From a virus: a DNA stretch of 42,077 bases. The stretch spans positions 1-42,077 of the IMG/VR virus record IMGVR_UViG_3300042402_007428; one strand, written 5' to 3'. The notes below the pieces were generated by a model, which was not told the origin of the DNA, ran no database searches, and saw only the letters and a program-made list of their open reading frames with translations. This document shows positions 29,377 through 40,511 of this stretch, piece after piece. A program made the translations under genes and the position numbers. Position 1 is the first letter of the stretch, and every line of letters begins with the position of its first letter.

Positions 29377-30132
29377 ATGGCTAACATTGCATTGAAAACC
29401 TACGGCAAGGCACTGCTCGAGTCTGTCAACGAAGACAGCACCAAGGCAGGTACTAGCGATTTGGTGAAGCAGGGCACGCAGGCGTTGAATAAGACGCCGA
29501 GCGGGGCAGCGAGCACTGAGGCGGGCAGGGATGCGAACAAGTATGTCGTGCCATCGTCTGTGCAGCGGGCGGCAAAGAACGGCCTCGCGCTCCGCAAGGT
29601 GCGTGAGCGGCTGAAGGCAGATGGCAAGATTGGCTCGAGCGAATCGCTAGGCGGCACCGATATTGGTGTTGCACGGGCAGTACAGCTCGCATCGGGCGAC
29701 AACATATCGGCATCTGCCATCAAGCGCATGGCAGCATACTTCACACGGCACGCCAAGGACAAGGATGCTGCGGGGTTTGGCAACGATGCCGAGCCTAGTG
29801 CGGGGTATGTAGCGTGGATGTTGTGGGGCGGCGATGCGGGCGCAGATTGGGCAAAGGGCGTGGCAGGGAAGATGGAGGAGGCGGTGGCCGCAACAACCTC
29901 ATCACGCACCAACAAAGCCAAGCCGTTGCGTGGCAAGGGGCGTGCCATTGCCAACATTTACACTACATCGGATGTGACGCTGAGCATACAGCTCAATCTG
30001 AGCGATCTGCAGGCGTTGTTCAGTGGCAAAGAGGTTGAGATCACGGCCCGCGACTTGAAGCGTGCTGCAGATCAGAACAACATCTACCGCGTCTTTGTAG
30101 CCTACAATGCCAAGGGCAGCGAGGCGGTGTGA
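29377..30132 (+). CDS. Phage protein with a conserved 'SAGYVAWMLWGG' domain
   Basis: A 251-residue protein; AAGG precedes ATG 29377. Residues ~57-165 form a domain found in many phage proteins: 'VPSSVQRAAKNGLALRKVRE', then 'GGTDIGVARAVQLASG', 'SAIKRMAAYFTRHAKDKDA' and 'PSAGYVAWMLWGGDAGADWA'. I recognise the pattern from virion or head-maturation associated proteins but cannot name an activity. The flanking parts are low complexity, and the last ~60 residues are mixed. It is coupled to the next gene (3-nt overlap). Confidence 0.6.
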   Translation: MANIALKTYGKALLESVNEDSTKAGTSDLVKQGTQALNKTPSGAASTEAGRDANKYVVPSSVQRAAKNGLALRKVRERLKADGKIGSSESLGGTDIGVARAVQLASGDNISASAIKRMAAYFTRHAKDKDAAGFGNDAEPSAGYVAWMLWGGDAGADWAKGVAGKMEEAVAATTSSRTNKAKPLRGKGRAIANIYTTSDVTLSIQLNLSDLQALFSGKEVEITARDLKRAADQNNIYRVFVAYNAKGSEAV

Positions 30133-30815: not shown

Positions 30816-30843
30816 TTGACACACGTCAGTCTTCCGCTAATCT
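30816..30843 (+). promoter_or_regulatory. Promoter upstream of gene 30886
   Basis: TTGACA (30816-30821), 16-nt spacer, TAATCT (30838-30843), then TCGCA. A GGCAA-CGG-TTGCC hairpin (30853-30865) follows in the leader. Confidence 0.7.
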
Positions 30844-36574: not shown

Positions 36575-36944
36575 TCCAAAGAGCCGAGGTCGGGCAAAGC
36601 GGCCCGAATGCCGCAGGCACATCAACGCCTGTGCCATCATCAAAGTGCGGGCCACTCAGGTCTACGGGAGCCTTGCCAAGTTTGGCATACGGGCAGGGCT
36701 AAGTAGGCAATTGCTGCATTGCCGCATGCGGAGTGCCGAGGTTTGGAACCCGAACCACGGTTGGTGGGAGTATGTGTTGGCGTTGCCGCAAGGTGTGTTG
36801 GCGGGCGATGCTGCGGCTGCCTGTGATTTGATTATGGCATTGCCGCCTGTGCCTGATGCGGCTGCGATTGATGCCATTGTTGCAGGGCAGGCTGTGGTGT
36901 GGAACGATTGCGATGTGGCACGCGGCGGTTGGAAGAAGGGATGA
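36564..36944 (+). CDS. HTH-like protein, second of a tandem pair
   Basis: A 126-residue protein from ATG 36564, overlapping the previous gene by 11 nt. Basic N-terminus ('SRNPKSRGRAKRPECRRH'), HTH-like 'SLAKFGIRAGLSRQLLHC', then 'MRSAEVWNPNHGWWEYVLAL' and 'PQGVLAGD', aligning with the same part of the first paralog. Duplication with sequence drift suggests two related specificities. Ends in an ATGA overlap with the next gene. Confidence 0.55.
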   Translation: MSRNPKSRGRAKRPECRRHINACAIIKVRATQVYGSLAKFGIRAGLSRQLLHCRMRSAEVWNPNHGWWEYVLALPQGVLAGDAAAACDLIMALPPVPDAAAIDAIVAGQAVVWNDCDVARGGWKKG

Positions 36945-37408
36945 TCTACATCGGCGTCATCCCACGGCAGGCGGGCGCAATTGCCGCGTTGCGCGAGGAT
37001 GGCACCATTGCGGGTGTGGAGCGTTTTGGCGACACGGAGACGCTTGGCAGGGCTGCGCTTGTGATTGGCGACTTTGTTGAGGCGTTGGACACGGACGAGC
37101 CATTGGCTGCCACTGTATCGCGGTTGGACAAGGGCAATACGAAGTTTGATGGTGCTAGGGTGTATGGCGAGTGTTTGGGCGGACTGATGCTGACGAAGTG
37201 CCGCGTCTTTGCAATCAAGCCTGCCGATTGGCTGTACGGGTTGTCGCTGCCCAAACGCCACTTCACGCCAAACTACAAGCATGCGCTGCGGGATGCGGCG
37301 CAAGAGAAGTGGAAGCGCGATGTGTTGCTCTGCGAGGCAGACGCTCTGTGGGTTGCCGAGTGGGGCAGGCTACATGGCCCTTGGTCGCCAAGCATGCGTG
37401 CGAAGTAA
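36941..37408 (+). CDS. RuvC-fold-like protein lacking key catalytic acids
   Basis: A 155-residue protein; AAGAAGGG precedes ATG 36941, which overlaps the upstream stop. The order of elements follows the phage RuvC/RNase H fold: first strand 'MIYIGVIPRQAGAIAAL' (I7 where the catalytic Asp normally sits), a strand with S60 where the catalytic Glu would be, 'FAIKPADWLYGL' like the 'VxPxxW' element, then 'CEADALWVAEW' with D134 retained. Two of the three acids are missing, so nuclease activity is doubtful; it may bind junctions or inhibit resolvase. The alignment is by eye, so moderate confidence. Confidence 0.55.
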   Translation: MIYIGVIPRQAGAIAALREDGTIAGVERFGDTETLGRAALVIGDFVEALDTDEPLAATVSRLDKGNTKFDGARVYGECLGGLMLTKCRVFAIKPADWLYGLSLPKRHFTPNYKHALRDAAQEKWKRDVLLCEADALWVAEWGRLHGPWSPSMRAK

Positions 37409-37779: not shown

Positions 37780-38638
37780 AAACGCCTTGCACAGCCGCCA
37801 AGTACTCGATCACGGCTTTGTGCGACTTGTAGATTGCATGCCACGGTATGTTGCGGAGGGCGAGACGGCAGACACAGCCATCGTCCGCGCCGCCCGCGTA
37901 AGTTACGGCGATGGCACCAAGCAGGTTAGTGACGATCGCAATCTGATCCGCTATCTGATGCGGCATCGGCATACGACGCCGTTTGAGATGGCCGAGTTTA
38001 CCTTCCATGTGAAATGCCCTATCTTTGTTGCCCGTCAGTGGATGCGGCATCGGACAGGATCGTTCAACGAAGTATCGGCGCGGTACTCGGTGTTGCCCGA
38101 GGAGTTCTACATTGCCGAAGATCACTATGTTCAACACCAATCGCTGCTGAACAACCAAGGTCGTGATGGTGCTTTTGCGCAGAGCGAGGCCAATGACATC
38201 CTGTTCGCTATGCGGTCTAACATGGCGCAGACGCATGCAGAGTACCACCACCTGTTGGGCAAGGATGTGGCGCGGGAGTTGGCGCGTACTGTGCTGCCTG
38301 TGGCTACCTACACGGAGTTCTATTGGAAGGTTGATCTGCTGAATCTGCTCAAGTTTCTGCATCTTCGGACGCACAAGCATGCGCAGATTGAGATTGCGCT
38401 TTACGGGGCGGCGATTGGCATGATGCTTAGGCCGTTAGCACCACACACGATGGATGCTTACCAAGACTATTGGGTCGAATCGCCTAGCCTATCGAGCGGC
38501 ATGTGGCTTTCGGTTCTGCTCACTTTGAGCATCGCGGATCGCAAAGCCATTGTTGACGTCTTCAAGGTATCCGAGCCCAAGCCGAGCAGGCGCGAAGTGC
38601 GCGAGTTCGCAGACGAGCTAGGTGTTGATGCGGAATAA
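37757..38638 (+). CDS. thyX: FAD-dependent thymidylate synthase
   Basis: A 293-residue protein. The signature RHRTGSFNEVSARYS (residues 97-111) is present, with the conserved 'AARVSYGDGTKQVSDDRNLI' in the N-terminal part. ThyX makes dTMP from dUMP using methylene-tetrahydrofolate, FAD and NAD(P)H; the homotetramer needs no separate dihydrofolate reductase. ATG 37757 is chosen, with GAGGGAG upstream; it overlaps the small membrane gene. Phages use ThyX to raise the dTTP supply for replication. A ring of small ORFs surrounds it. No base-modification gene is visible to link it to hypermodified thymine. Confidence 0.93.
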   Translation: MMKVDLIENALHSRQVLDHGFVRLVDCMPRYVAEGETADTAIVRAARVSYGDGTKQVSDDRNLIRYLMRHRHTTPFEMAEFTFHVKCPIFVARQWMRHRTGSFNEVSARYSVLPEEFYIAEDHYVQHQSLLNNQGRDGAFAQSEANDILFAMRSNMAQTHAEYHHLLGKDVARELARTVLPVATYTEFYWKVDLLNLLKFLHLRTHKHAQIEIALYGAAIGMMLRPLAPHTMDAYQDYWVESPSLSSGMWLSVLLTLSIADRKAIVDVFKVSEPKPSRREVREFADELGVDAE

Positions 38639-38912
38639 ACCACGGCCAAGCACCAAGACGACATCCATGCACTCGCTGCAGCGGTGTCCTACCAAGGCCG
38701 AGCGGGCGACCATGTTGCGCAATCCGAAGAAGAATTCAGCCGAAGCCATTGCCATGCGTAGGGTTGTGGTCGAGATGGGGCATTGGTTGTCGCCCTTTAT
38801 GCGCGATGCACCACTGCCTATGCTAACGGAGTGGGAGGCGACGGTTGATTTGTCCACATTGGATGCGTGGACAAACTACAACCCGAAGACGGGCAGGATG
38901 CAGGACAAGTAG
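38628..38912 (+). CDS. Hypothetical protein
   Basis: A 94-residue protein; AGGTG precedes ATG 38628, overlapping the thyX stop. It has a basic N-terminus ('RNKPRPSTKTTSMHSLQRCP') and a helical centre ('SAEAIAMRRVVVEMGHWLSP'). No family recognised. Confidence 0.5.
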   Translation: MRNKPRPSTKTTSMHSLQRCPTKAERATMLRNPKKNSAEAIAMRRVVVEMGHWLSPFMRDAPLPMLTEWEATVDLSTLDAWTNYNPKTGRMQDK

Positions 38913-38933: not shown

Positions 38934-39131
38934 ATGGTAGGTGCTGTTGTGGTGGTAGTTCTGTTTGTTGGCAATCTGATCGGATTCCTGTTGTTGGCGC
39001 ACGCAGCAGCAGGTTATGTAACTGCGGGTTACGCTTTGTACGCCATAGGTGCCTACTTTGCCGTGGTGGCGCAGGCGATTGTGGTTGCAGCGGGGTTTAG
39101 CGAGGCAGTGCGTAGGTTTCGCGACGATTAG
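38934..39131 (+). CDS. Small two-span membrane protein
   Basis: A 65-residue protein; GGTGG precedes ATG 38934. Two hydrophobic stretches, 'AVVVVVLFVGNLIGFLLLAH' and 'GAYFAVVAQAIVVAAGF', would span the membrane twice, leaving a basic C-terminus. It could be a holin-like protein, but there is no lysis cassette next to it. Its stop shares one base with the tRNA gene. Confidence 0.55.
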   Translation: MVGAVVVVVLFVGNLIGFLLLAHAAAGYVTAGYALYAIGAYFAVVAQAIVVAAGFSEAVRRFRDD

Positions 39132-39213
39132 CCGGAATGGCGGAATGGCAGACGCGGTGGACTCAAAATCCACTACCCGTTAGGGTGTGCGGGTTCGACT
39201 CCCGCTTTCGGTA
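39131..39213 (+). tRNA. tRNA-Leu(CAA)
   Basis: Class II tRNA, 83 nt. The acceptor stem GCCGGAA pairs with TTTCGGT (39206-39212, two G-U pairs). The anticodon arm GTGGA/TCCAC holds loop CTCAAAA, with CAA as anticodon. A long variable arm (ACCCGTTAGGGTGTG) and GGTTCGACTC T-loop region are as expected for leucine. There is no encoded CCA. It reads UUG, the leucine codon this phage prefers, so it probably compensates for a host that rarely uses it. Confidence 0.92.
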
Positions 39214-39224
39214 CTAGGTGCAAC

Positions 39225-39437
39225 ATGGCATACGCATACGCAAACGATGATAACGCGAAGAGGCCGATTGAGGTGACGCTGCCTGCCAACACAGGCGGTA
39301 ATCTGACGATTGCCGAGGCCAAACTGCTGATTGGCGATCTGCAAGAAGCCATTGCGCAAGCGGAGGACAACGCGAGGTACAATGCGCTGACGCCGAACGA
39401 GCGCATGCGGGCGTTGTTGGCAAAGAACAAGAAGTAG
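39225..39437 (+). CDS. Small hypothetical protein
   Basis: A 70-residue protein; AGGTG lies before ATG 39225. A beta-rich start ('PIEVTLPANTGGNLTIAEAK') is followed by a charged helix and Lys-rich tail. Unknown role. Confidence 0.5.
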   Translation: MAYAYANDDNAKRPIEVTLPANTGGNLTIAEAKLLIGDLQEAIAQAEDNARYNALTPNERMRALLAKNKK

Positions 39438-39481: not shown

Positions 39482-39525
39482 TCCCTCAGATCGCAGCGAT
39501 AGGCGTTGCGAAGTAGGAGGACAAG

Positions 39526-39858
39526 ATGAAGACGAACTCGCTGCTGAATGAACTTACCTTTGTGCAACTCCTTGCCCTGATGGATGCCTGTTGGCACACG
39601 CAGAGTGCCGCTTGGGATCGCCTTGCTGATCTCCTTGTGACGCGGGAGGAGTGGAGCCGAGGCGACCGAGAGCGTGCCACTGACGAGCAGGTTGTGGCCG
39701 AGGCCGACAAGCATCGCCTCGCAGAGCGTAACAGCGCAGCGGTGTTGCTGCGGTTGCAGACCGAGTTTACTACCGAGTGGAGCGAGTTTGCCACCGAGTG
39801 GTGGAACGAGGATCACTTGCGCAGGCTGCTTGACAGCTCGGATTGCGTTGCGCAGTAG
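39526..39858 (+). CDS. Small acidic helical protein
   Basis: A 110-residue protein; AGGAGGA precedes ATG 39526, and its own promoter is 45 nt upstream. Mostly helical, Glu/Ala/Trp-rich ('TQSAAWDRLADLLVTREEWS'). It is probably an accessory early protein. No family recognised. Confidence 0.55.
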   Translation: MKTNSLLNELTFVQLLALMDACWHTQSAAWDRLADLLVTREEWSRGDRERATDEQVVAEADKHRLAERNSAAVLLRLQTEFTTEWSEFATEWWNEDHLRRLLDSSDCVAQ

Positions 39859-40050: not shown

Positions 40051-40078
40051 TTGACAGCGGCGAAATGCCCGCTATGGT
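40051..40078 (+). promoter_or_regulatory. Promoter of the candidate small RNA
   Basis: TTGACA (40051-40056), 16-nt spacer, TATGGT (40073-40078). The expected start of transcription is about 40085. No ORF with a sensible start follows before the terminator. Confidence 0.65.
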
Positions 40079-40084
40079 GCTAAC

Positions 40085-40160
40085 GCGGCAGCCGCTCCCG
40101 TTCCTCCAATCTTTAGGAGGGTGAAGGTTACACTCACTTGGGGGCGGCTGCTTTCGTTTT
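40085..40160 (+). ncRNA. Candidate structured small RNA
   Basis: An approximately 76-nt unit between a promoter and a terminator-like tail. The outer stem GCAGCCGCTCCC (40088-40099) pairs with GGGGGCGGCTGC (40140-40151), 12 bp with one G-U. Inside are CCTCC (40103-40107) with GGAGG (40116-40120) and a weaker GTGA (40121-40124)/TCAC (40134-40137) pair, giving a possible three-way junction. TTTCGTTTT follows. The CCTCC/GGAGG hairpin contains sequences able to interact with Shine-Dalgarno or anti-SD regions. Alternatively it is a long attenuator or terminator. No known RNA family was recognised. Confidence 0.5.
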
Positions 40161-40181
40161 GCTGTTGTGTTGCAAGAGTTG

Positions 40182-40209
40182 TTGACAGGTATCAGTCACC
40201 TGCTAAACT
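40182..40209 (+). promoter_or_regulatory. Promoter upstream of gene 40233
   Basis: TTGACA (40182-40187), 16-nt spacer ending ACCTGC, TAAACT (40204-40209), then TCGCA. Confidence 0.75.
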
Positions 40210-40213
40210 TCGC

Positions 40214-40234
40214 ACATTGGTTATAGTGACCAAT
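40214..40234 (+). promoter_or_regulatory. Inverted repeat over the +1/start region
   Basis: CATTGGT (40214-40220) and ACCAATG (40228-40234) are perfect 7-bp arms with a 7-nt spacer. The site sits immediately after the -10 and covers the first ATG of gene 40233. It could act as an operator or as an RNA hairpin blocking the start. Confidence 0.5.
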
Positions 40235-40511
40235 GCAACGGATAGTGACAATGCTCAGCAACATGACAAGCGAAAACATTGCGGTACTGAATGGGGCATC
40301 TACCGAATTGTGGTGGGCGTTTGACAACCTCCGCAAGGCGCGGGAAGCAGCGGCCAACGCGGCACTGCCATGTTGGGCTAGCAGCCGCCTCGACGAGATC
40401 GCAAAGCAGAACGCCTTTGCCTATGCCCGCGAGCAGGTTGAGGTGGAGCGGGCCAAGGTTGAGGCTGCCCTGCAGGATGTGAAGGATGCCCTTGCGGCCC
40501 TTGAAGCCTAG
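40233..40511 (+). CDS. Small helical protein
   Basis: A 92-residue protein from ATG 40233; ATG 40251 and 40263 are also possible and no strong ribosome-binding site favours one. If 40233 is used the transcript is almost leaderless. The protein is Ala-rich and helical ('FDNLRKAREAAANAALPCWA'), ending in a coiled-coil-like Val/Ala/Glu helix. No family recognised. Confidence 0.5.
   Translation: MQRIVTMLSNMTSENIAVLNGASTELWWAFDNLRKAREAAANAALPCWASSRLDEIAKQNAFAYAREQVEVERAKVEAALQDVKDALAALEA

Follow-up and report, generated by a model that had tools for sequence, protein, structure and literature searches.

A structured small RNA gene candidate, with promoter-like boxes at a fixed distance, in a sheathed-tail phage and in uncultured phages with unrelated packaging genes

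The DNA analysed here, referred to as the window, is a virus record of 42,077 bases that encodes a T4-like major head protein, a tail sheath, a UvsX/RecA-like recombinase and ThyX, and thus comes from a sheathed-tail phage. Some of the best matches are to Synechococcus phages, a weak hint as to the host. The nearest phage, IMGVR_UViG_3300009164_000100 (G001), is colinear with the window at about 69% nucleotide identity. A tRNA-Leu (CAA) at 39131-39214 has a syntenic counterpart in G001, and the 70-amino acid protein encoded at 39225-39437 (MAYAYANDDN...) has a homologue there that is 77% identical, with none beyond G001 in a scan of the viral collection. The element described below is absent from G001, the nearest phage searched, and is therefore dispensable.

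The element begins on the + strand with a promoter at 40051-40078, formed by TTGACA (40051-40056), a 16-nt spacer and TATGGT (40073-40078), which agrees with the consensus at 10 of 12 positions. A sequence-only reading of this DNA had proposed these boxes and this spacing, and had placed the next promoter 22 nt beyond the unit; both boxes are present, and the next TTGACA lies at 40182. TATGGT would span -12 to -7, with G40085 as the predicted transcription start. A dinucleotide model predicts 0.67 ± 0.91 sites of the TTGAC type with at least 10 of 12 matches on the + strand of the window, and three are present, so that a single promoter-like site is by itself modest evidence. Promoters of the form TTGACA-16/17-TAnnnT precede many genes in the window (further + strand examples at 30816, 35184, 39454, 40182, 40537 and 41167) and throughout G001. 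What usually follows each is a gene with a ribosome-binding site and a short hairpin in its 5'-UTR, the start often being TTCGCA; the leader CGCAGCGATAGGCGTTGCGAA at 39493-39513 is identical in G001. Among the promoters of the two phages the unit at 40051 is an exception, being followed by a large structure and no gene.

The structured RNA predicted at this site would be about 76 nt long (40085-40160, + strand), its 5' end taken from the promoter and its 3' end from a U-tract. The fold of 40080-40170 has an energy of -41.5 kcal/mol (z = -4.66), and none of 200 shuffled sequences folded as well. It is a three-way junction in which a GC-rich outer helix of 14-15 bp, P1, closes two hairpins, P2 and P3. 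P1 (40087-40152) pairs 40087-40100 with 40139-40152; an outer stem had been noticed before and is indeed there, but with 14 pairs in the best fold rather than 12. The two inner hairpins proposed at the same time are both found inside it: P2, CCTCC-AATCTTTA-GGAGG, at 40103-40120 (arms 40103-40107 and 40116-40120), and P3, GTGA-AGGTTACAC-TCAC, at 40121-40137 (arms 40121-40124 and 40134-40137).

An open reading frame of 67 codons starts with GTG within this structure (40121-40324), and AGGAGG stands just upstream, which could be read as the start of a short protein. Here the AGGAGG abuts the GTG with zero spacing, and codon usage is of the wrong-frame type (-0.37 for its initial 80 nt and -0.12 for the whole frame, where genes give +0.36 and wrong frames -0.40), in keeping with the initial judgement that the frame is unlikely to be coding. 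In the related loci described below, the frame extends for anything from 18 to more than 100 codons beyond the core, and the changes track base pairing. We consider the chance that this frame is the functional product to be negligible.

Related loci were not reached through the neighbouring genes. Baits from the proteins at 40233-40511 and 39526-39858 found no relatives, the 70-amino acid protein at 39225 recovered G001 alone, and an exact 20-mer of P1/P2 gave two chance matches, both in one coding region. Relatives came from two pattern scans of IMG/VR. The first used a loose pattern in which the inner half-stems CCTCC, GGAGGNTGA and TCAC were fixed and the loops were free, and matched 116 viral stretches. 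When these were ranked by the pairing of their flanks, three loci (L128, L035 and L097) stood out. The outer stem carries changes in all three, and the loop AGGTTAC[AG]C was common to them, although it had been left free. The second scan, with a pattern on the P3 hairpin and P2 free, added L149, L151, L152 and L155. This gives eight copies including that of the window, the seven relatives all being on contigs of uncultured phages. The remaining matches to the second pattern, among them all 11 in GTDB genomes, have no outer stem and were dismissed as chance. Five of the eight copies (on G009, G010, G012, G013 and G015) are close kin, which reduces the number of independent lineages to about four.

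A covariance model built from the seven relatives, with the window left out, picked out 40085-40152 in the window (63.9 bits, E = 3.4e-11); it gave no second match there, and none in those ThyX-related loci that were searched. In the eight-sequence alignment, 99.0% of pair cells hold standard pairs, compared with 92.8% in shuffles, and eight pairs (six in P1 and two in P2) are changed on both sides, compared with 1.8 expected, a count that none of 500 shuffles equalled; this alignment was guided by the model and leans towards the structure. Sliding the pairing by one to three columns leaves 35-55% of it paired. Alignment of trimmed sequences with MAFFT misplaced P1 of the window and was set aside in favour of the model-guided one. 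Plain MAFFT on untrimmed sequences followed by RNAalifold, which is independent of the model, also arrived at these three helices, with compensatory changes in seven pairs, and the seven relatives alone, without the window, hold four such pairs. The sequence-only reading had named compensatory changes in the outer stem and a covariance-model search as checks on its proposal of a phage small RNA, non-coding and under a promoter of its own, and that proposal is now strongly supported by the covariation in P1. We hold with high confidence that the locus is a genuine structured RNA gene.

The two hairpins differ in what is conserved. The pairing of P2 is kept while its sequence and loop vary: the arms are CCTGCC/GGCAGG in L152 and CCCTC/GAGGG in L149, and L151 and L155 carry an internal mismatch. 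It had been suggested that the CCUCC/GGAGG pair could touch ribosome-binding sites, and the window copy does contain CCTCC and AGGAGG, as an anti-Shine-Dalgarno element or a decoy of ribosome-binding sites would. However, CCUCC is paired within P2, leaving no conserved accessible CCUCC, and it is replaced in L149, L151, L152 and L155 with pairing or helix shape retained. Since it is the pairing of P2 and not its sequence that is kept, the suggestion fails as a conserved function, and we regard it as very improbable. P3, GUGAAGGUUACRCUCAC, is constant in all eight copies save for one A/G position, an invariance that is in part a matter of ascertainment, as the second scan demanded most of P3; the loop is nevertheless identical in the three matches from the first scan, where it was free. 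A shared target recognised through loop complementarity was sought among the carrier phages and none was found. With the search confined to the P3 hairpin, no complement of at least 9 nt is common to these phages, which makes a phage mRNA a less likely target.

The promoter is tied to the RNA in the same manner in every copy. In 8/8 copies the distance from the start of TTGAC to the RNA's first conserved base is exactly 34 nt, indicating that promoter and RNA form one unit, and this form is kept across different genomic settings. TTGACG stands upstream of the RNA in L128, L035 and L097. By eye, the relatives appear to have a TAGnCT-like -10 box after an 18-nt spacer, several copies being imperfect.

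The surroundings of the RNA vary among its carriers. The contig with L128 (G011) is 46 kb long with a 127-bp terminal repeat, its terminase and portal are unrelated, and its RNA copy is preceded by an endolysin and by a small gene with hydrophobic stretches. The unrelated terminase and portal, together with the differing gene contexts, indicate that the RNA is independent of any one neighbour. A gene of 133-135 amino acids adjoins the RNA in G010, G011 and G012; it looks holin-like by inspection of its hydrophobic stretches and its place after the endolysin, and has no Pfam match. It was considered as a partner protein and rejected, its segment being missing from G015.

Phage structured RNAs at such positions often act in cis. 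In the window, a promoter, a structure and a U-tract stand upstream of a gene, as would be expected of a short terminated leader like the pR' leader RNA of lambda or the put RNA of HK022, read-through of which, governed by a phage factor, would control the downstream genes. Against this, the next gene of the window has its own promoter 22 nt on, the RNA of five relatives faces convergent rather than co-directional genes, and the downstream sequence is not common between lineages, so that a leader of this kind appears unlikely. In the same five relatives (G009, G012, G013, G014 and G015), the convergent open frame extends at its 3' end into the RNA, which is antisense to it there, as would be expected of an RNA directed against a neighbouring gene of the phage. 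Neither the window nor G011, however, has a convergent frame overlapping the RNA, and the G014 frame terminates in a different register with the RNA core unchanged, which also means that the conservation is not accounted for by protein coding. There is room for a local antisense role in those five relatives; as the account of the element, we judge it quite improbable.

A terminator or insulator between operons, with the promoter incidental, would fit the GC-rich stem followed directly by the tract TTTCGTTTT (40152-40160) in the window, as well as the position of the RNA at the end of the lysis-gene side in the relatives. The T-rich tail reported earlier is thus present, and from its sequence this tract after P1 is probably an intrinsic terminator, but the window is the one copy in which this is convincing, the U-tract after P1 being poor or missing in the relatives. 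Moreover, a constant P3 and a TTGAC always at -34 are not required of a terminator, and this explanation seems rather improbable.

Searches for known counterparts gave negative results. At Rfam 15 gathering thresholds no family covers the RNA, the tRNA-Leu being the sole match in the window; at relaxed thresholds the window matched BcKCsr2 alone with 17.9 bits (gathering threshold 40), and L035 and L152 matched nothing. Short chance matches were all that was obtained, at E up to 10, from INPHARED (50,697 phage records; window and L155-type queries) and PLSDB (72,556 plasmid records; window query). The exact core pattern gave 11 single chance matches and no arrays in the 84,980 species genomes of GTDB. 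Searches of 563 genomes (274 + 289) of two proteobacterial classes, run under strict filters and with no positive control, gave no hit. No description of the RNA was found in the literature searched. Taken together, the RNA is probably a new family within a known kind, the phage-encoded small RNAs.

To our knowledge, phage small-RNA families whose structure has independent support are few, and phages of enteric bacteria are the source of most. The OOP RNA of lambda has 77 nt and is transcribed from its own promoter, pO (PMC12197685), and the sar RNA of P22 has 68/69 nt. The window RNA resembles both in being short, non-coding, phage-encoded and of nearly equal size. OOP and sar pair with known phage mRNAs (cII and ant), whereas no complement of P3 is shared by the carriers of the window RNA, which also differs in being a three-way junction with covariation and no Rfam match. 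Racrs, or RNA-based anti-CRISPRs, are viral small non-coding RNAs that act on a host system (PMC10651486). The window RNA is likewise a small non-coding RNA of a viral genome, but Racrs mimic CRISPR repeats, whereas the core found here occurs once per locus, forms no array in GTDB and folds as a three-way junction. The pRNA of phi29 is a phage RNA that contains a three-way junction, as the window RNA does, and works in the packaging motor; it is longer, and the window RNA lies far from packaging genes and has no match in Rfam.

We favour, with some reservation, a free-standing phage small-RNA gene whose product works in trans, through P3, on a protein or RNA of the host. Transcription would start at about 40085 from a sigma-70-type promoter, and the product of about 76 nt would fold into the P1/P2/P3 junction; in the window phage, P1 and TTTCGTTTT would end the transcript. 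P1 and P2 would serve as a scaffold in which pairing is kept while sequence drifts, and P3 as the contact site on a host protein or structured RNA during infection. For the trans action through P3, taken as a separate claim, we put the chances at a little better than even. A further possibility, which we offer tentatively, is that this RNA family, common to unrelated phages, inactivates or reprograms a host factor via P3, as a host-takeover or counter-defence element made of RNA only; if so, it would be an element of a kind not yet described. Covariation, a fixed promoter distance and otherwise unrelated carriers make the RNA a definite object of about 75 nt for synthesis, pull-down and deletion. 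Should P3 bind a host factor, RNA-based control of the host by uncultured phages would be revealed.

Three genes of the window (29377-30132, 36899-37408 and 38622-38912) recur as homologues in several RNA-carrying contigs, suggesting that the hosts are related or that genes have been exchanged. The proteins from 36899-37408 and 38622-38912 have no homologues in INPHARED. The G011 homologue of 36899-37408 lies inside an open reading frame that matches a Holliday-junction-resolvase family, and the window product is probably such a resolvase. Downstream of the RNA, G011 encodes a ParB-like protein, a protein with a methyltransferase domain and one that matches a beta-glucosyl-HMC-alpha-glucosyltransferase family. 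A PAPS-reductase-like gene and a DNA methyltransferase lie close by, and these genes are possibly a DNA-modification cluster.
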